Assembly: GCA_903907815.1 (NCBI GenBank)
Contig: CAIVPM010000224.1
Span: 1-33,931, forward strand
DNA length: 33,931 bases
DNA from: an uncultured Chitinophagaceae bacterium
GTDB taxonomy: Bacteria > Bacteroidota > Bacteroidia > Chitinophagales > Chitinophagaceae
Reading direction: 5' to 3'
Positions 851-17,523 of this stretch are shown here, piece by piece; the first letter of the stretch is position 1, and the number at the start of each line of letters is the position of its first letter. A model generated the notes under the pieces. It searched no databases. It saw only the letters and a list, made by a program, of their open reading frames with translations, and had not been told where the DNA came from. The position numbers and the translations under genes are program-made.

Positions 851-1046
851 TTTAACAGCTCTCCGTGTAGGTACCACGGACAATCCGTACCTATACCACG
901 AACTCTTCGTTGTTGTACTACGAACCATCCGTTGTTATGCCCCGACAGTTCGTGTAGGTATCACGGACAATCCGTACCTGTACCACGAACTCTTCGTTGT
1001 TGTACCACGAATCATCCGTTGTTATGCCCGGACAACTCGTGCATGC
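851..1046. repeat. Array of eight 22-bp hairpin units in two 87-bp superunits
   Basis: Units begin at 872, 894, 916, 938, 959, 981, 1003 and 1025, so the period is 22 with one 21-bp step. A degenerate ninth copy may precede them at 851-871. Most units contain a short dyad of the form ACGRA-NNN-TYCGT, for example ACGGACAATCCGT and ACGAACTCTTCGT. Units 1-4 (roughly 864-950) and 5-8 (951-1037) are near-identical, which gives an 87-bp higher-order repeat. The array is about 100 bp upstream of the minus-strand gene that starts at 763. An open frame of 74 codons crosses it but is only the repeat being translated. Confidence 0.85.
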
Positions 1047-1057
1047 TACACCGTTGA

Positions 1058-1681
1058 GTGTGTAATACGTACTTCTTGTATTGTAGATAAGTAACTACTA
1101 CTAAATAATGGTTACCTAACTATGAATATGTATTTACCCAACATGCTGTAGTATAGTCTTTATAGTTGGGTTTTTCCTGCCCGGGTGTTGGATAAACTTA
1201 TCCCTTTCCCCGGAGCTTTATCCCGCGACTTCCGTGGCGCAGCTGCCAAAGTTGTTTTGTAGATAGTGGGAATAATTTACTGTTAAATACAATAGTGGAG
1301 ATTTTGCAAATGTAGTTTTACTATTTAAAGTGAAAACGGATACCAGATAATTGCAAACAAACTGTATATTCATGTAGTTTTATTAGCCCCCAGATGTGTA
1401 CCGGGATTTTTGAAGAATGTCTTCGGGGTGCAATCTAACTTGATAAATAGTATGAAATAATGACCTTCATTGGTTTAGCGTATGATAGATATCATGTATT
1501 CCTTATTTTTAAAAATAATCACTAAATATTTTCAATAGGAAACAATAAATTAATATTAGCTTAACCTTAAGTTAACATTGGACTGTGAAGTTTGCATGTC
1601 AGAACTAAGAGAAATTATGTACCAATCTGTACCATTCTCTATGTTTTGATATATTAATTCGTAAACAGCAAACAAATCTAT
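1058..1681. other. Gene-free leader upstream of the giant adhesin
   Basis: I see no gene in these 624 bases. At 1136-1171, ACCCAAC and GTTGGGT pair across a 22-nt loop and are followed by T residues, a weak terminator-like hairpin. A short GC-richer patch at 1176-1260 looks unlike its AT-rich surroundings. The element ATGTAGTTTTAYTA occurs twice, at 1310 and 1372. A group of small palindromes lies at 1482-1571 and has its own entry. I find no convincing promoter of the TAnnTTTG type close to the adhesin start. Confidence 0.5.
1482..1571. promoter_or_regulatory. Cluster of palindromes upstream of the adhesin
   Basis: Three symmetric elements lie 110-200 bp before the adhesin start. They are ATGATA-GA-TATCAT at 1482-1495, the perfect 16-bp palindrome TTATTTTTAAAAATAA at 1503-1518, and CTTAA-CC-TTAAG at 1560-1571. 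Their position fits operator sites or a structured leader, but AT-rich DNA produces short palindromes by chance, so the regulatory role is inference. Confidence 0.3.
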
Positions 1682-4600
1682 ATGAGCAGTTTTACTCCCA
1701 TCAAAAGTATTAAAAGCAGTAAATTATTTACTGGAATCAAGTTCAGAACCCTGCCTATTGTGGCTTTCATGATGGCTATGATAGTCGGATTATCTGGGTT
1801 GAATGCTCAGATTCTTACATTTAATTTTACAGGTACTGCTCCATCTTTAAATACACCTTGGACATCAACATCCTCCCTTAATGCTAATCTTACTTTAACT
1901 ACTGGTGTAAGTCTTGGTGCTGGTGTTGTTGGGGCAAATACAAATAACCGTGTTAGCACTACTGGTTATAATGTAAATACAACCCTAGCCACAGCAATAA
2001 CTGGAAATAACTACATTAATTTTAAAATTACACCAGCTCAAGGGTATAATTTAAGTCTTGCAGGCAAAACAATAGTATTTACAGTTCAATCAAGTGGTAC
2101 AGGAGTCACAGATTGTGCATTACTTACAAGTATAGATGGATTTACTACTTCCAATGTTATTGGCTCAAATGGGCCTTCCGGAGTAACATCAACTACTACT
2201 TTAAGAAATCTTACAACTACTGGCATAACATATACATTTGGAAATGGTGCACAATACAGCAATATAACCTCTACTGTAGAGTTTAGGTTCTATGCTTATA
2301 ATGCAAGTGGTAGTGGAGGTACATTTAGTTTAAATGCTTGTTCATTAAATGGAACCTTAGCAGCTTGTACGCCTGTAGCTGCAACTGGTTTATCAGGTAC
2401 GGCAGGCGATACAAAGTCTACCGTTTCCTGGACTAACCCTGCTTGTTTTTCAAAAGTAATGTTGGTTGCAAATACTAACGCATTTACTAGTGCTACTCCT
2501 TCGGGGTCTTCCTATACTGCAAACTCTCCATCTTTTACAGATGCTGCCAATACAGCTTTTGATGGTGGTGTAGTATTATATTATGGTACAGGAAATACAG
2601 TAAATTTAACAGGGCTGACAAACGGTACTTCTTATAATTTAAAATTATTTACACAATCTGTATCTGGTACATGGTCTTCTGCAGCTACTGGTACTGCTTC
2701 TCCTATAGCTTGTTCAAGCCCTACAGCTGTAACAGGGTTATCTGCTACTAATGCAAATGCACAGTCTGTGCTTACCTGGACTAACCCTGCCTGTTATGAT
2801 AACATCATGGTAGTAGCTTCTTCATCTTCTTTTACAAGTGCCGCTCCTTCAGGCACTGCTTATACTGCACACTCAGCTAGTTTCACCGACGCTGCCAATA
2901 GTGCCTTTGATGGTGGTGTAGTAGTTTTTTATGGTAATGCCACCACTGCAACAATTACAGGACTAACTAATGGAACAACTTATAATTTTAAAGTATATAC
3001 TGTAAAAGGGTCTACCTGGAATGGTACTGCTACAGCTTCAGCTGCTCCTTACCTTCCTGCTTATTTTTGGAATGGGGCAAATCCTACCAGTGGTAGTTCT
3101 GTTGTTTCTGCAGGTGGTACTGGTACATGGAATACTGCAAATGCTTGGGTACAACCTACTTCAACAGGTACTGGTGCTAATTGGGCTGATGGAAATAATG
3201 CTGTATTTGCTGGTACTGCTGGTACAGTTACTTTAGATGCTTCTAAAACAACTTCAGGAACTTATTTTAATACACCTGGTTATACTTTACAAGCAGGAGC
3301 CACATCAACCTTAACTGGACCAATATATTTAAATTTTAATAGTGGTTCTGCTCCTTATACTTTAACGGTAAAACCGGTTACTTTTACACTTACCATTCCT
3401 AACAGTATCTCTAGTACAGGGTCTAATTCAGGTACTTTAGTTTTAGATGGTGGAAGTCTAGGTGCAACTAACTTTGCAATTCTATCTTTAACTGGAGCAA
3501 GTCAATCTATTTCAACTCCAGTTACTGTTCAGTCAACTGGTAATACAGCTGGTTCTGGTACAGTAGGATTGGTAGTGAGTGCTACAGGTACTTATAATGT
3601 TACTGGAAATATTACCAATAATGCAAATACTTATTTGTTATTAGGCGGTACAAGTGGAGGAACTCTTACTGTTTCTGGTCAGATTTCTTCTTCTACTTAT
3701 GGTATCATGTATGCCAATAAAACAGCAGGTGGTGGTGCTGCTCCTTTATACTTAAATCATGACAATAATTATACGGGTTCTACTTTAATTAATGGAGGTG
3801 GAACTAATGGACTAGTATCATTAGGTACCGATGGTGCTCTTCCTGCTACTACCGATGTAATAATGGGCTATACTAGTAGTAATGGAGGTTTCCTGGATAT
3901 AAATGGACATAATCCTACGATTAATTCTATTTCCAGTGCCAATGCTTCTGCAACTGTAGGGGTTACCAATGGTGCTGCTGGAACTGGAACGAATACATTA
4001 ACTATTGCTGGTAGTACTACTCAAACACTTGCGGTTCCTATTAATAATGGTGCAACTGCTAAAACTGCTTTAGCAATTACAGGTGCTGGTACTTTAACGC
4101 TTTCTCAGGCTTCATCATTTAGCGGAGGATTATCTATCTCTGGTGGAGGTAAATTCCAGGCAGGTATTGCTTCGGTATTCTCTGGTAGCCCCGCCATAAA
4201 CTTGGATGGTGGAACTTATTCAACTGGAGCTACTACTGGATATTCAGCTACTACAGGTAGTTTAAATATTGGTACAAATGGTGGAACAATATCTCTAGGT
4301 ACTGCTTCACATACCTTAACCATTGCTAGTAGCACAGGAAATACATGGGGTGCTGGTAATTTAACCGTTAATGGCTGGACAAGAGCTGCAAATACAGCTA
4401 CTGCAAGCGCTGGCAAAATTGTTATAACATCGGGTGGTTTAACTTCTACTCAATTAGGAAAGATCAGCTTTAATGGATTTAGTGGTCATGCTATATTTAA
4501 TCCTGCTGCTACTACCGAACTGATACCTGATTATGTTGATGGTTCTAACAATACAAATTTTGGAACTGCTACTTATAATCCTTCTTCTACTGCTGCTGCT

Positions 4601-7600
4601 TTAACTGTTGCTGCTACCTGTAATAGTGCTGCTATTTCGGGAACTGCAACGTATCAGTGGTTTAGCAGTCCTAATTCGAATGGTAGTTCAGCAACTAATT
4701 TAGGTGCTGGTGCAAGAACGGCTTCTTATACTCCTTCTGTAACTAACAATACAAGTTCACCTATTACTACTTATTACTATTGTGTAATTACGTATAACAA
4801 CTATACCTATACAACACCAGTTTCAGGTGCAATAATTGTAAATCCTGCTCCTGCAATTAATATATCTGCATTATCTGGTGCTTCTAATCTTACGTATCTA
4901 TTGGGTAATGGACCTTCTGCTATTGCCAGCTTTACGGTAAGCGCTACTTATTTAACAGGCGGTTCTGGTACTATTACCATTGATAACGGTTCTTCTAATG
5001 CACTAAGTTATTTTGAATTAAGTACCGATTATGTAGCTGGTTCAAATCCTGGAACATGGGCTGGTACTGCTTCTATAAGCTATAGTTCAGCTACTCTTGC
5101 CACAACAACTGTTTATGTTAGATTAGCAGCTGGACAAGCAGTTAATAACTCTATTTCTGAAACATATCTTTCTGTGTATGGTGGTGGTGCTACTACCAGC
5201 CAGTCAGGTTTCTTGAATGGTTCAGTTACCTCCAGTACACCTCCGGTAATTACTGGTCAACCTTCATTATTAAACAGTACTTCTTGTAATACAGGATCGG
5301 CTATCAGCCTAACAGTAACACCAGGTACCGATGCAACTCCTGCTTATCAGTGGTGGTATAATACCAGTGCTTCTACATTAGGGGCTCAGGTTCTTACTGC
5401 AAATGCAAATGGGGCAAGTTATACGCCAGCAATTACCAGTCAGACTGTAGCTGGAACTGCTTACTATTATTATTGTACTGTAACAGATACTTACAGTAAT
5501 TTAGCAACCAGTGATTTTTCAGGAGCTATTACTATTAATGCTCCAATTGCTGCTGCAACTGTTTCAATAGTTGCCAGCAGTACTACTATATGTTCAGGTA
5601 GCAATGTTACTTTTACAGCAACCCCTGTTAACAATGGAGGTTCACCTTCTTATCAATGGTCTTTATTTAATGGAACAAGCTGGGTAAATGTTGGTACAAA
5701 CAGTAACACTTATTCTACTACCACATTAGCAGATCAGCATCAGGTAAAAGTTACTTTAACTCCAACGGGTGGATGTTTAACAAGTACTGCAGATGCTATT
5801 TCAAATACGATTACCGAAACAGTTCCGGTTACAGAAACAGCTTCTTTTTCTATTGCTGGTAATTCTGTAGCATGTATCTCTAAAAGTGTAACGTTTACAG
5901 CTGCTGCTCCTACAGCTACACCTTCCAATACCTTCGATGTAGGTGGTGCTGGTGCAACTTACGACTGGTATTTAAATTCCGTTTTACAATCAGGGCATAC
6001 CAATACTTTTACTTATACTACAGGTGCTACCGCTACTACCGATAATGTATATGCTAAATTGCATACTGCTACCGGTGTTTGTGTAAGTTCTAATCTTGTT
6101 ACTTCTACTAATACAGTGAGTGTGGTAGTAAGTGCTGCTATTCCTTCGGTAACTACTACCTCTACAGGTGTAGTACTTTATCCAGGCTTTACCAGCACTT
6201 TTGCTGCTACTGCTTCAGGTACAGGAACATTAAGTTATCAATGGAAAAATAATGGCGCTTCAATTACTAATAATGCTACTAATGGCAATACTGCAACCAC
6301 AGCAAATTATACTGCTAATGCAACTGATTTAACCAATGCTGCAAGCGTTACTTGTACAGTTACATCTTCTTTAGGATGTTCTGCAACAGCTACCGGTATC
6401 ACCGTTTCTATTCCAACCCCTGTTGCATTTACTCCAGGTAACATTGTAGTAGAAAGAGTAGGAGATGGTGTAACCAATAATGCAGCTAATGCAGGTAGAT
6501 TATTTATCGATCAGTTTGCACCTTCTGGTGCAAGCCAAACGGCTATAAGTTCTTCTCCTTTGCCTTATTCAGTGGGTGCATATTCTACTGGTTCTTCTTC
6601 TACCACTAATTTTAGTTTAACCACAAGTGCTAATGCCACTTCAGAAGGATACATGACATTGTCTGCTGATGGTAAATTTCTGGCAGTTCCAGGATATAAT
6701 GCTCCTATAGCTACTGTAAGTATTGCAACTACAACAACAAGTGCTCCTAGTACAAACTATCGTGCTGGTGGTGTTGTTTATGGTTCGGGTATTGCTACTG
6801 TTCCTTTAGCGGCAGATTTTCAATCGGGCAACAACCTACGTAGTGTAGTTTCCGATGGTACATCTTTCTGGTTCTCCGGAGCATCAGGTTTTTATTACTT
6901 CAGCAACTTATATGATAATAGTGCTAAGACTTATGGAAGTGTAAATACAAGAACACTTAAAATATACAATGGCTCTATCTATGGTAGTTCAGCTTCAGGT
7001 TCAAATATAGGTATAAACTTTGTAGATTATCTATCAAACCTGGGTGATAATGGAACTACCGCTGCAATGACATTGTTAACACCGGTTTCTCCTAATAACG
7101 CTCCAAATGCCAATGGATTTGTTATGAATCCTACTGGCGATGTGATATATGTAGCCGATGGAACCAACGGTATTATGAAATTTACTTACAATGGAACAGC
7201 ATGGTCTAAAGCGTATGTATTAAACACTACTACTTGTCTTGGTATTACAGGAATATTTACGGGTACAAATCCAGTAATTTATGCTACATCGTCTTCTGGT
7301 GCACCAAGTAAATTATTTTCTGTTACGGATGCAGGAAATCCAGGCACAGCTACTGCAACTTCAAGCAACTATACACTATTATCTACTTCTGCAAGTACTT
7401 GTGTTTACAAAGGAGTGGCTTTAGCGCCATCTGCCAGCCAAACCAGCATTATATATGCAAACACAACATATCAGGGGAATAATTTTGGTGCTGGTGCTTT
7501 TTCAAATACCTATGCTAATTCACCTACTACTTCAGTAGCTTCAGGTAATGTAAACTTTTTTGCAATTGCTGGAATTTTCTTAAACAATCCGGTAGTTATT

Positions 7601-10600
7601 ACACCAGATGCTGGTTTCGAAGTTTCTCTAGATCCTTCTTTCGGTACTTATTATACCAATGCATCTCCTCTTAGTATTTCTGCTGCAACTTTTGCGCTTA
7701 CTTCTACTTCTTCTACTCAAGTTGTATATGTAAGATTCAAACCAACAACAGCTGGAACTACTTATTCTGCTACCAATATTAAAATTACTTCTACAGGAGC
7801 TGCTGAAATTGATATTCCAGTTTCAGGAACTTCAAATGCTGCATCTGATTACTATTACGTTGGAACAGGCGATTTATCTTTAACCAGTAGCTGGACTATT
7901 AACAGCGATCTTTCTGCAGGTACAGCTCCTCCAACTATGAGTACAACAGGAATTACATGGCATTTAACTAATACAAAAAATGTATCATTAACTACTGCCT
8001 GGTCTTTAGGTACCAATGCAAGAATTATTGTTGGGGATGCTACACATACATTTAACTTAACAGTACCTTCCGGTAATGCTATTACCGGTGGATTAGGAAT
8101 TGAAGTTACCAATGCAAGTTCATTAATCTGGCAGGATGCAACCAGCTCACCAATTTTTACAGTGTTGGATGATGGTAGCACTGTAAACTATGCTGCTGCA
8201 ACTGCACAATTAATAAGAACTGCTGCTTATAGTAATCTTACTTTAAGTGGTGCAGGTTCTAAAACTTTCTCTGGTACTTATTCTATCAGTAAAACATTCA
8301 ATGCAGGTTCTGCTACTATTGCAACTACTGGTTCTTCTATTAGTTTCAATGGTACTGCTGCACAAAATATTCCTGGAATTACGTACGATGCCTTAACGGT
8401 ATCTAATGCAGCAGGTGCAACTTTAACTGGAACTGCCACTGCCGGTAATTTAACTATTAGTACAGGTACTTTATATGTTCCTGTAAATAAATCTTTAACA
8501 GTAACGGGTACTTCAGTTTCATTATCTGCTGCTACCAGTGGATTAGACATTGCTGGTACGTTTAATAATGGTGTTGCTGGTACAACGGCTGCTACCTTTA
8601 CGCAAGCAGTTGGTTCTTCTATAAATTGTAATTATGCAACTACAGTGTATAACCACCTTGCAAATGGTGGAGGCATACCAAAAGCTACCTGGAACGCTAC
8701 ATCACTTTGTAATGTTACCGGTATTACCACCACCAATCCTACCAGTGCTTCTTTTGCTCAGAGCTTTGGTAAGTTTACCTGGAACAACAGTGGTCAGACT
8801 ACTGCATTAAATATAAATACAAATAGCTTTGGTACTCAAGGGTTACTGGATATTGAAGCTTCAGGTACAAGTTATTTTGCCTTAGCAGGTGGATTATCAA
8901 ATACCTACACTTATAGTACTAATGCTATTACGGTAAATAATGCTAAATTCTATACTTGTGTAAGAAGCTCTTCTGTAACGCCAACTGTATCCGTTAATGT
9001 AACTGGTAATATAAATGTTAGTGGTACTGCTACAGTTGATTTAGCAAATGGTACTGCTGCCGCTGCCGCAAGTACTTATGCTACTACCTTAAATGCTGGA
9101 GGCAATATTATAGTTGCTGCAACTGCTTCTTTTGTTGCAGGTACTAATAGCAACACAACAAATGGTGCTAAAATTATATTTACTAAATCGGGTGCACAGA
9201 CTTATACCAATGCAAGTGCAACTGGTAAAATTGATTATATCATTAATACAGGAAGTACGGTTACATTAGGTGCTAATCTTACTCAGTCATCTTCATCTAC
9301 TCCTAATGATTATATAAGCAATAATGGTATACTTAATCTTGGTGGTTATAAATTAACCTGTGGTAATATCAATAATTCTACTGGTAATATTGCTGCAAAT
9401 AATGGAAGTATAACTTTCAATGGTTCTACTGACAATACAGTTTATTTTACTACTGCCTCTTCTAATGTTTTAGGTAGTTTAATATTAAGTGGTTCAGGAA
9501 CGATTAAATTAGGTAATAACCTTGGTATTGCTACGCTATTATCGATTGGTACAGGTACTATATTGGATATCAATGGTCACAACCTTACTTTAAAGAGCAC
9601 CGCTGCTGGTACTGCAGAAGTAGATCAGGTAAATGGTATTATCAAAGATGGTACACAAGCTTCTCCTTACACTGCTACCAATGTAACTGTTGAGCGTTAT
9701 ATTCCTCAAGGAAAGAGAAACTATCGTGATCTTGGTCCATCAGTAGCAAATGCAGGTACTGTGTTTGCAAACTGGCAAGAAAATGGAGCAGGCTCTCCTT
9801 CTGCTACTTATGGTGTTTATATAACTGGTAAAACAGGTACTCCTGGTTATGCAGCTTACGATCCAACTACTGGTTTCGACTACACTACTAATGGTAATAA
9901 TGCTCCTTCACTATATAGTTGTGTAAGTGGCAACTGGGCTGCTGTAACTACAGCAACTGGAGGTACAAAAGGAATAAGCTTAGATCCATTTAAAGGATTG
10001 AGATTATTAGTAAGAGGTTCAAGAAACTTCAATATGGGTACTAACCCTGCTAATATGCTTACTGCAACTACCTTAAGAGCAACGGGTAGTCTTGTTACTG
10101 GAACAGTTACTTTCAATGCAATTGGAACTGGTACAGTATCTACTGGTGGTTATACTTCTACTTATGGATTAACTCCTCAGAGTGCTTATGTAAGCGGAGA
10201 AGGTTGGTCTTTCGTTGCTAATCCTTATGCATGTCCTGTTAGTTGGTCTTCTATAATAAACAATGCAGGTACTACCGGTACCAATGTAGGTAACTTCTAT
10301 TGCTTCCTTGATCCTACTTATCAGAACGGTGGTTTACAACGTTATGTTACTGTACAATACACAGGTTCAACAATTGTTACCAATCTTCCTGCAGGTGTTA
10401 CTGCTGCTAATCTTTTAAATATACAACCAGGACAAGGTTTCTGGGTATACCATACTGCAGCTACTCCTAAACTGGTAATCAGAGAAGCTGATAAAGTAGT
10501 TGGTGGTACTCAAACTACGGTGTTTAGAACTGCTAAATCAAACATGTTGAATGCAAGTATCTGGAAAGATATAGATGGAGTTTCTACTAATGTAGATGAA

Positions 10601-11245
10601 ACTGTTGCAACTTTTGATAATAACTATTCTAGATCAATTGGTGCTGAAGATGTTAAGAAACTAATGAATGGGGGAGAAAATATCTCTATCGTAGAAGCTA
10701 ACACTGATTTAAGTATCAATGGCATAGCATTACCTTCAATAGGAGATGAGATAGCCTTAAGAGTAGGAAATGTAACTGCTAATACTTCTTATCAACTGAA
10801 AGTAGATGCTTCTCAGCTCACAGCTCCTGGTATTCAGGCATTTATTAAAGATGCATTGTTGAATACAATAGTTCCTGCAGAAACAGTAGTGAACTTTACA
10901 CCTACTACCGATGCTAATACATACAAGAATCGTTTCAGTGTTGTATTTAAATCATCTAAAGTGGTACCTGTAACTACAGTTAAAGGAAATGTTAGCGTAT
11001 ATCCTAATCCTGTTATCAGCAAAACATTTACGCTGCAAACAGCAAATGTTGCTGCTGGTAAATACAATGTAGTAATAGTAAACAGTCTTGGTCAGGAAGT
11101 ATTCAATACTACCATCAATCATAAAGAAGGTTTAACAACAGAGACTGTCAAAATGAACAAGTCTTTTGCAGGTGGATTATATACAGTGGTTCTAAGAAGT
11201 ACAGAAGGCAAAGGCGATTATAACACTGAATTGATAGCTAAATAA
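1682..11245 (+). CDS. Giant T9SS-sorted adhesin-like surface protein, 3187 aa
   Basis: Predicted secreted cell-surface protein. Residues 1-43 form a signal peptide (hydrophobic TLPIVAFMMAMIVGLSG, ending LNAQ). Then come an N-terminal beta-domain (about 44-225) and two tandem FN3-like repeats (about 227-342 and 343-456) that share the motifs WTNPAC and SFTDAAN-AFDGGVV. Autotransporter-associated beta-strand-like repeats follow (about 460-960), then several Ig-like modules with QW and YYYC motifs (about 960-1580), a propeller-like region (about 1580-1930), a choice-of-anchor-like beta domain (about 1950-2050), a long beta-helix-like stretch (about 2050-2660) and a region beginning VERYIPQGKRNYRDLG. 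The C-terminal 85 residues are a type A T9SS sorting domain: VYPNP near 3105, GKYNVVIVNSLGQEVF, GGLYTVVL. The protein is rich in Thr, Ser, Gly and Ala and poor in charged residues. The small gene 27 bp downstream is probably co-transcribed. Surface export is well supported; the ligand is unknown. Confidence 0.93.
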   Translation: MSSFTPIKSIKSSKLFTGIKFRTLPIVAFMMAMIVGLSGLNAQILTFNFTGTAPSLNTPWTSTSSLNANLTLTTGVSLGAGVVGANTNNRVSTTGYNVNTTLATAITGNNYINFKITPAQGYNLSLAGKTIVFTVQSSGTGVTDCALLTSIDGFTTSNVIGSNGPSGVTSTTTLRNLTTTGITYTFGNGAQYSNITSTVEFRFYAYNASGSGGTFSLNACSLNGTLAACTPVAATGLSGTAGDTKSTVSWTNPACFSKVMLVANTNAFTSATPSGSSYTANSPSFTDAANTAFDGGVVLYYGTGNTVNLTGLTNGTSYNLKLFTQSVSGTWSSAATGTASPIACSSPTAVTGLSATNANAQSVLTWTNPACYDNIMVVASSSSFTSAAPSGTAYTAHSASFTDAANSAFDGGVVVFYGNATTATITGLTNGTTYNFKVYTVKGSTWNGTATASAAPYLPAYFWNGANPTSGSSVVSAGGTGTWNTANAWVQPTSTGTGANWADGNNAVFAGTAGTVTLDASKTTSGTYFNTPGYTLQAGATSTLTGPIYLNFNSGSAPYTLTVKPVTFTLTIPNSISSTGSNSGTLVLDGGSLGATNFAILSLTGASQSISTPVTVQSTGNTAGSGTVGLVVSATGTYNVTGNITNNANTYLLLGGTSGGTLTVSGQISSSTYGIMYANKTAGGGAAPLYLNHDNNYTGSTLINGGGTNGLVSLGTDGALPATTDVIMGYTSSNGGFLDINGHNPTINSISSANASATVGVTNGAAGTGTNTLTIAGSTTQTLAVPINNGATAKTALAITGAGTLTLSQASSFSGGLSISGGGKFQAGIASVFSGSPAINLDGGTYSTGATTGYSATTGSLNIGTNGGTISLGTASHTLTIASSTGNTWGAGNLTVNGWTRAANTATASAGKIVITSGGLTSTQLGKISFNGFSGHAIFNPAATTELIPDYVDGSNNTNFGTATYNPSSTAAALTVAATCNSAAISGTATYQWFSSPNSNGSSATNLGAGARTASYTPSVTNNTSSPITTYYYCVITYNNYTYTTPVSGAIIVNPAPAINISALSGASNLTYLLGNGPSAIASFTVSATYLTGGSGTITIDNGSSNALSYFELSTDYVAGSNPGTWAGTASISYSSATLATTTVYVRLAAGQAVNNSISETYLSVYGGGATTSQSGFLNGSVTSSTPPVITGQPSLLNSTSCNTGSAISLTVTPGTDATPAYQWWYNTSASTLGAQVLTANANGASYTPAITSQTVAGTAYYYYCTVTDTYSNLATSDFSGAITINAPIAAATVSIVASSTTICSGSNVTFTATPVNNGGSPSYQWSLFNGTSWVNVGTNSNTYSTTTLADQHQVKVTLTPTGGCLTSTADAISNTITETVPVTETASFSIAGNSVACISKSVTFTAAAPTATPSNTFDVGGAGATYDWYLNSVLQSGHTNTFTYTTGATATTDNVYAKLHTATGVCVSSNLVTSTNTVSVVVSAAIPSVTTTSTGVVLYPGFTSTFAATASGTGTLSYQWKNNGASITNNATNGNTATTANYTANATDLTNAASVTCTVTSSLGCSATATGITVSIPTPVAFTPGNIVVERVGDGVTNNAANAGRLFIDQFAPSGASQTAISSSPLPYSVGAYSTGSSSTTNFSLTTSANATSEGYMTLSADGKFLAVPGYNAPIATVSIATTTTSAPSTNYRAGGVVYGSGIATVPLAADFQSGNNLRSVVSDGTSFWFSGASGFYYFSNLYDNSAKTYGSVNTRTLKIYNGSIYGSSASGSNIGINFVDYLSNLGDNGTTAAMTLLTPVSPNNAPNANGFVMNPTGDVIYVADGTNGIMKFTYNGTAWSKAYVLNTTTCLGITGIFTGTNPVIYATSSSGAPSKLFSVTDAGNPGTATATSSNYTLLSTSASTCVYKGVALAPSASQTSIIYANTTYQGNNFGAGAFSNTYANSPTTSVASGNVNFFAIAGIFLNNPVVITPDAGFEVSLDPSFGTYYTNASPLSISAATFALTSTSSTQVVYVRFKPTTAGTTYSATNIKITSTGAAEIDIPVSGTSNAASDYYYVGTGDLSLTSSWTINSDLSAGTAPPTMSTTGITWHLTNTKNVSLTTAWSLGTNARIIVGDATHTFNLTVPSGNAITGGLGIEVTNASSLIWQDATSSPIFTVLDDGSTVNYAAATAQLIRTAAYSNLTLSGAGSKTFSGTYSISKTFNAGSATIATTGSSISFNGTAAQNIPGITYDALTVSNAAGATLTGTATAGNLTISTGTLYVPVNKSLTVTGTSVSLSAATSGLDIAGTFNNGVAGTTAATFTQAVGSSINCNYATTVYNHLANGGGIPKATWNATSLCNVTGITTTNPTSASFAQSFGKFTWNNSGQTTALNINTNSFGTQGLLDIEASGTSYFALAGGLSNTYTYSTNAITVNNAKFYTCVRSSSVTPTVSVNVTGNINVSGTATVDLANGTAAAAASTYATTLNAGGNIIVAATASFVAGTNSNTTNGAKIIFTKSGAQTYTNASATGKIDYIINTGSTVTLGANLTQSSSSTPNDYISNNGILNLGGYKLTCGNINNSTGNIAANNGSITFNGSTDNTVYFTTASSNVLGSLILSGSGTIKLGNNLGIATLLSIGTGTILDINGHNLTLKSTAAGTAEVDQVNGIIKDGTQASPYTATNVTVERYIPQGKRNYRDLGPSVANAGTVFANWQENGAGSPSATYGVYITGKTGTPGYAAYDPTTGFDYTTNGNNAPSLYSCVSGNWAAVTTATGGTKGISLDPFKGLRLLVRGSRNFNMGTNPANMLTATTLRATGSLVTGTVTFNAIGTGTVSTGGYTSTYGLTPQSAYVSGEGWSFVANPYACPVSWSSIINNAGTTGTNVGNFYCFLDPTYQNGGLQRYVTVQYTGSTIVTNLPAGVTAANLLNIQPGQGFWVYHTAATPKLVIREADKVVGGTQTTVFRTAKSNMLNASIWKDIDGVSTNVDETVATFDNNYSRSIGAEDVKKLMNGGENISIVEANTDLSINGIALPSIGDEIALRVGNVTANTSYQLKVDASQLTAPGIQAFIKDALLNTIVPAETVVNFTPTTDANTYKNRFSVVFKSSKVVPVTTVKGNVSVYPNPVISKTFTLQTANVAAGKYNVVIVNSLGQEVFNTTINHKEGLTTETVKMNKSFAGGLYTVVLRSTEGKGDYNTELIAK

Positions 11246-11617: not shown

Positions 11618-11809
11618 AGTAAATTAATCAATACATAATTCAGTTGTTATTATTTGTCTTACCCTTTAATATGATGATAAAAAGGATTGAATTGATAGAA
11701 ATGCTTGCGTTTTTTAATTATTTTAAAGGGGGATGTCAGGAGTTATTCTTCTTTCAATCGCTTTTAGGTTACTAACATTTGAAACTTTTTACCTTCAAAT
11801 TCTTTTAAC

Positions 11810-15016: not shown

Positions 15017-15120
15017 GGCGCGCCTGAAGGCCCGGCTATCCGGTTGTATCTTTTTGCCATATCAGATTCAAAAATTAATTACCCAAAAGGCAAAAAGGAT
15101 ACCCCTGCTATCCGTCGCGC
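15017..15120. repeat. REP-like palindromic element
   Basis: TATCTTTTTGCC (15047-15058) pairs with GGCAAAAAGGATA (15089-15101) with a single bulge. Outside it, GCGCG near 15019 can pair with CGCGC at 15116-15120. GCTATCCG occurs as a direct repeat at 15035 and 15107. The element is GC-richer than its surroundings. I recall very similar pieces (GCTATCCG plus a CTTTTTGCC/GGCAAAAAG hairpin) between genes in other Bacteroidota, so this is likely one copy of a dispersed repeat. A short open frame across it (14915-15163) is not a gene. Confidence 0.65.
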
Positions 15121-15647
15121 AATACCAAATACCTTCTGGTTTCTAATACCTTCTGGTTTTTAAAACCTTATAGGTATGCGCTCATCGTCAGACCAGCAAC
15201 CTATACTCCCAAAAAAGACCAACCCTGCTTTTTAATTGAGTAAGGTAGCTTGCAAAAAGAGCAACACAGATTTTTAAAAGAGCAGCATAGATGTTCGAAG
15301 AACCAAACCAGATTTTTTAGCGTATAAACCAGCTAATCAAATTACCAGCTGAAGTTTCTAATTTAAGCAGGTAGATAGTCAAATTACCACCTCAGATTAA
15401 GGAATCAAGAAATCATGATACATGTGAAAACATAGGATGTAGAAAATAAATCCATCCAGTTCAGGTAGAAATAGTTACAGGTAGAAAATGTTTTCCCTGA
15501 TGCAGAAAAAATATACGTAGAGATTTTTAAATAAATAATTTATGTAAAACAAAATATCAATACATGCAGAAGATATTTTAAGGCAGCTAATGAAAGTATT
15601 CTTATAAGTATTAAAAATATTCACCCTGCTCCAAAAGGAATTAGCAA

Positions 15648-17272: not shown

Positions 17273-17523
17273 GCTACAGGTAGGCTGTTCAAAACATACT
17301 ATATTTTATCCGACAGGTTGTAGCATTCGCTCAACCGCTTGCGGTGCTCTCTGTTCTCTATGTTTGTATTTTTTAATACACTATGCAACTCCGTGCCGCT
17401 GTGGCTCCGTGGTTCGATGTATTCTGTATTTATCACTACTCACGATGTATTTTCACGACTCACGAAAAGCACCATAAAGTGTAAGATAAAGAACCTCCTA
17501 TTTTGAACACCCTACGCTACAGG
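17273..17523. mobile_element. Possible MITE-like insertion with terminal inverted repeats
   Basis: TAGGCTGTTCAAAACA at 17281-17296 and TATTTTGAACACCCTA at 17499-17514 are inverted copies with 14 of 16 positions matching. GCTACAGG is present as a direct repeat immediately outside each end (17273-17280 and 17516-17523), as an 8-bp target duplication would be. The roughly 235-bp interior has no substantial open frame and includes ACCGC-TT-GCGGT at 17334-17345. One complication is that ACAGGTTGGTGT at 17519-17530 also occurs at 17221-17232 in the upstream terminator, so the direct repeat could have another origin. Confidence 0.4.

Follow-up and report, generated by a model that had tools for sequence, protein, structure and literature searches.

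Bacterial tandem repeats of constant size and variable sequence, with several families per species, were catalogued by Subirana & Messeguer (PMC8161180). The repeats measure 20-21 or 20-23 nt, with multiples near 40-44 nt; the authors equate this constancy with two turns of the helix, and the class is delimited by at least four tandem repeats of which at least 60% have one length within 1 nt. These constant-size satellites have been catalogued without known function, and satellites of Bacillus coagulans are transcribed (PMC8625621). A further relevant system is BrickBuilt, a MITE/minisatellite of Porphyromonas gingivalis with 19 intergenic copies, in which inverted-repeat ends enclose a leader, a 23-nt array and a tail (PMC4596501).

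We analyzed a 33,931-nt stretch of DNA from an uncultured Chitinophagaceae bacterium (hereafter the window) and found a non-coding satellite array at 857-1041, made of eight 22- or 21-bp units (approximately ACGGATNATTCGTGGTACAACA), as delineated by TRF, unit alignment and a second genomic copy whose orientation places the array on the minus strand. TRF assigned 864-1041 a period of 87 bp (2.0 copies, 92% match) and 871-1023 a period of 22 bp (7.0 copies, 63% match), and the unit-by-unit spacings were 22, 22, 22, 21 / 22, 22, 22, 21 bp. Hence, a sequence-only reading was right in proposing two 87-bp superunits with four distinct units each; these lie at 864-950 and 951-1037 (both minus strand) and comprise three units of 22 bp and one of 21 bp apiece. 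That reading had also taken every unit to be a small hairpin, which holds for fewer units: the ACGRA-N3-TYCGT dyad is present in six of the eight and absent from the 21-bp unit of each superunit. The window contains four occurrences of the double dyad ACGRA-N3-TYCGT-N9-ACGRA-N3-TYCGT, against none in 100 dinucleotide shuffles, and the linkers of the array are conserved in part, as in an ordinary minisatellite. A CRISPR array, which needs near-identical repeats and unique spacers, was rejected, since the units here are diverged, contiguous and free of spacers, as had been noted. A coding repeat was also ruled out, because only short open frames cross the array and the second copy is built of 65-bp blocks, a length indivisible by three.

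The array lies in a divergent intergenic region between a minus-strand gene (65-763; open frame of 233 aa), whose start codon is ~90 bp from the array, and a plus-strand gene for a giant protein, which starts at 1682, ~640 bp from the array. The former has no Pfam match, so the array was correctly placed upstream of a gene of unknown function; this gene family has four further matches in the same genome and four in a sister genome. The latter (1682-11245, plus strand) encodes a 3187-aa, repetitive and secreted-looking protein whose C-terminus resembles, by eye, a type IX secretion sorting domain. A possible terminator (1136-1175, plus strand), consisting of ACCCAAC...GTTGGGT with a long loop and then a T run, was noticed by eye and was not flagged by a terminator scan. 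A sigma-70 promoter scan, with a model ill suited to Bacteroidota promoters, gave sites no commoner than in shuffles. Elsewhere in the window, a Flavo-1 RNA (RF01705) scored just over the gathering threshold at 15025-15125 (minus strand). TCGTGAG-like units form scattered short arrays, at 17425-17465 of the window and at L102:1641-1709, L191:14370-14519 and L096:13124-13190.

Within the same genome (a draft of 3.9 Mb in 511 contigs, 100% complete, with a gene content suggestive of Bacteroidota, probably Chitinophagaceae), we found one further, diverged array on contig C97 (11475-11660), oriented as the minus strand of the window. It has the same period, but its block duplications are of 65 bp and three units, versus 87 bp and four units in the window. 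Both arrays have the same start, AACGGTGTAGCATRCACG (1038-1055 in the window, minus strand; 94% over 18 bp by pairwise alignment), and the same end, CACGGRGAGCT (857-867, minus strand; pairwise alignment), and both are preceded by a leader-like segment (1121-1150 in the window, minus strand) with 24/30 identical positions (local score 30, with shuffles averaging 17.3; P = 0.001). Hence, with array ends and leader in common yet different block sizes, the two arrays probably have a common origin and were then re-amplified separately. The concern that the unit might be found only here, with an unconserved dyad, thus falls away, as the second genomic copy exists and the dyad is kept. We found no match to the array in 60 relatives by sequence search or in 395 other genomes of the family by exact-pattern search (419 different genomes in total), and the leader-like segment had no further copies elsewhere. 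The C97 array is flanked by a HigBA-like pair (Gp49 and HTH_3) and by a convergent gene for a MauG-type cytochrome c peroxidase, all unrelated to the window genes. An interspersed repeat, GGATTTTCCCTTTCTATCCGTAACGCAACTACAAATACATCGCTC (~30 matches in the genome), flanks the C97 array in inverted orientation (L012:11190-11253 and 11736-11763, on G000:C97), and it is adjoined there by a hairpin, ATACATCTGACGAT...ATCGTCTGATGTAT (~10 further matches).

Scanning 711 kb (~18%) of this genome with TRF in an unbiased manner, we found 24 non-coding tandem arrays, non-coding being defined by the rough criterion of no open frame of at least 120 aa across the array. A period of 20-22 or 40-42 bp was found in 18 of the 24, with mostly unrelated sequences (for example, L091:365-676, L092:3838-4038, L094:15893-16007, L103:4525-4627, L109:6991-7101, L201:6138-6304, L226:8941-9154 and others), so there is a genome-wide excess of these periods; the same scan of 400 kb from each of two complete genomes of the family (one stretch per genome) gave one array and none. 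Among the options raised from the letters, a copy of a genome-wide repeat family comes closest: judged by sequence, the family comprises only two copies in the genome; judged by period, there are many mostly unrelated non-coding arrays. With its eight units, all 22 or 21 bp long, the window array falls within the class definition of at least four repeats of which at least 60% share one length within 1 nt; it is non-coding; and it is accompanied by several families of the same period and different sequence. A species-wide short signal, reported for many species and not strictly defining, was not found, as no 4-mer or 5-mer exceeded the shuffled maximum in 17 arrays of this genome. Hence, it is well supported that the window array belongs to the constant-size non-coding bacterial satellites (20-23 nt; here 22). 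Consensus units were strongly palindromic in three arrays of this genome (L094, L109 and L206); with free choice of centre, a consensus-level palindromy test reached P < 0.05 in 3 of 18 arrays, and the window and C97 arrays were not among them. Since the other satellites of this genome share the period, mostly lack the dyad and have no common short signal, one protein for all of them is unlikely.

Because the consensus-only test does not single out the window array, support for its dyad rests on a unit-level test, in which the 22 columns were permuted in all units together; this control keeps composition, repetition and divergence and breaks the dyad. The dyad exceeded the control in the window (WC, P = 0.004) and, with both arrays pooled, was matched in 0 of 500 permutations. 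We also searched 84,980 species in one scan and found the exact double dyad in 45 stretches versus ~4 expected by chance (our own arithmetic, assuming even base composition). Two groups of these stretches are prominent. In the first, from Prevotella species, arrays are numerous and mostly intergenic; Prevotella sp. RGIG5089 (G420, L111-L130) has genome-wide arrays of AACGGAGSCTCCGTT palindromes, whose arms resemble those of the window, and gave 271 unit-pair matches versus 0 control matches. When gaps of 1-31 bp were allowed in this genome, all 31 forward matches fell at a spacing of 22 or 44 bp, and in a sample of 21 arrays, 49/49 spacings were multiples of 22. The five central linker positions of the same 21 arrays carry 0.04-0.12 bit, i.e. 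they are saturated. Covariation between the outer arm positions is absent at three of five pairs and weak at two, so it was discarded as evidence for a hairpin; at the most variable well-paired position, C-G gave way to T-G and to C-A 13 times each and to T-A a single time. Hence, with rigid spacing, free linkers and mostly uncompensated arm changes, a DNA-binding dimer on two phased half-sites fits the Prevotella arrays better than hairpins do. The likeness of the window and Prevotella arms is partly due to the search pattern, and homology between them is not claimed.

The second group consists of ACGAA-N3-TTCGT pairs exactly 22 bp apart in other Bacteroidota (Daejeonella, Sphingobacterium, Massilibacteroides, Porphyromonas and a Sphingobacteriales MAG). 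At 10 of its 11 loci, the distance between the pair and the start of a BlaI-like gene is 4-22 nt, and PF03965 was confirmed by Pfam for four of these genes. These paired palindromes (L036, L044, L047, L051, L053, L054, L058, L066, L067 and L071) are probable BlaI operators; the eleventh locus (L052) has the same kind of initial sequence and no frame of 80 aa. Hence, a dimeric repressor plausibly reads the 22-bp-spaced geometry. As an explanation of the window array, a BlaI operator was rejected, since PF03965 (BlaI/MecI) has 0 matches in its genome; for BlaI, as for the Y1 transposase considered below, failure to match a family in a draft genome argues strongly, though not absolutely, for its absence.

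These BlaI-adjacent pairs, together with the divergent intergenic position close to a start codon, would suit a local multi-operator, in which the eight dyads would be bound by a regulator, whether repressor or activator, of either gene 65-763 or the divergent giant gene. The proposal that the array is such an operator is disfavored and we consider it highly improbable, in view of the missing BlaI match, the C97 array between convergent genes unrelated to those of the window, and the paralogues of gene 65-763, which have no array. The convergent setting of C97 also speaks against a structured RNA, proposed earlier as a leader, since a copy placed there is no 5' leader. As a minus-strand transcript, either the 5' leader of gene 65-763 or a small RNA, the array would act through its hairpins, and some evidence leans this way: the minus strand of the window array has a better fold than dinucleotide shuffles (z -4.2) and, marginally, than column-permuted arrays (P = 0.027), several units retain in the sense orientation a G-U pair that would be A-C on the other strand, and the transcribed satellites of B. 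coagulans offer a precedent. The C97 array, however, folds no better than its column-permuted controls (P = 0.39), Rfam gave nothing above threshold at either array, and the Prevotella arms mostly lack covariation. The leader proposal is thus weakly supported, with the fold of the window in its favor, and a structured RNA appears improbable; regularly spaced docking sites for a protein agree somewhat better with the evidence than RNA hairpins do. Joint movement of leader, array and tail as a non-autonomous, MITE-like element, as for BrickBuilt, would account for the leader-like segment and the array start and end common to both loci, and BrickBuilt likewise consists of an intergenic leader, 23-nt array and tail. 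We judge it distinctly improbable here, given that inverted repeats near the window array are short, distant and at chance level, convincing terminal inverted repeats and target-site duplications are lacking at the window, the family comprises two copies with a leader not found elsewhere, and the inverted repeats at C97 are part of the separate interspersed repeat. Mobilization by a RAYT, a link that the sequence-only reading had suggested checking, was rejected: Y1_Tnp (PF01797) has 0 matches in this 100%-complete genome (versus two in the sister genome, G001, and one in the Prevotella genome, G420), and RAYT genes elsewhere are accompanied by different hairpins. RAYT-like genes at L079 and L080 are adjoined by REP-like hairpins of their own, unrelated to the arrays.

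The main rival to phased protein binding, the mechanism that we prefer, is neutral amplification, by which slippage and unequal recombination would have produced a functionless minisatellite, kept by chance, whose period would stem from the genesis of the array and not from selection. Strong divergence of the units inside each array, block sizes that differ between the two loci, the lack of a dyad in most other arrays of this genome and the failure to find the array in relatives all agree with this origin. Against it, periods are concentrated at 20-22 and 40-42 bp, and the Prevotella spacing is rigid though the linkers are saturated, which is not expected from neutral drift; we regard a functionless array as possible, though rather unlikely. 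The window array is one constant-size, variable-sequence satellite in a genome with many, enlarged by duplication of multi-unit blocks, of four units in the window and of three at the second locus. With moderate confidence, we infer that it most likely works through phased binding, although the window linkers, partly conserved as in a minisatellite, and the satellites of this genome that mostly lack the dyad count against this. The array would then be a row of weak symmetric binding sites, set two helical turns (~22 bp) from one another along a single face of the DNA and occupied by a putative DNA-binding protein that may organize the nucleoid.

The Prevotella arrays provide a sharp constraint for any explanation of such repeats, in that the spacing keeps to multiples of 22 bp even with randomized linkers and with arm changes that are mostly uncompensated, a pattern indicative of DNA-level selection for phased symmetric sites. 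It is conceivable, though we suggest it only tentatively and think it unlikely, that in Bacteroidota as distant as this Chitinophagaceae bacterium and rumen Prevotella, ACGRA-N3-TYCGT-like palindromes at 22-bp spacing serve as helically phased platforms for a putative dimeric chromosome-organizing protein; this would account for at least some of the constant-size satellites.

Compared with described systems, the window array resembles REP/BIME elements, which are mobilized by RAYT/Y1, in its palindromic intergenic units; unlike them, it lies in a genome free of Y1_Tnp matches, and in the sister and Prevotella genomes the hairpins next to RAYT genes are different ones. With the BlaI/MecI operator pairs of Bacteroidota, themselves inferred from position, it shares ACGAA-N3-TTCGT palindromes exactly 22 bp apart, but those are two sites at one promoter versus eight in the window, in a genome without a BlaI match. 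BrickBuilt (PMC4596501) is alike in its spacer-free intergenic 23-nt tandem repeats with leader and tail, its predicted stem-loops and its Bacteroidota host, and differs by inverted-repeat ends and 19 copies from a family that has two copies, a 22-bp unit and no convincing inverted ends; of a BrickBuilt-type leader and tail, the window shows the 24/30 leader-like match and the common array ends, between two copies only. From the constant-size satellites (PMC8161180), as presented in the sections used here, the array is set apart by its dyad, its nested superunits and the missing species-wide short signal; palindromic units and Bacteroidota are not described in those sections. It matches these satellites in being non-coding and species-specific, in its period of 21-22 bp with multiples at 40-42 bp, and in sharing its genome with many unrelated families of the same period.
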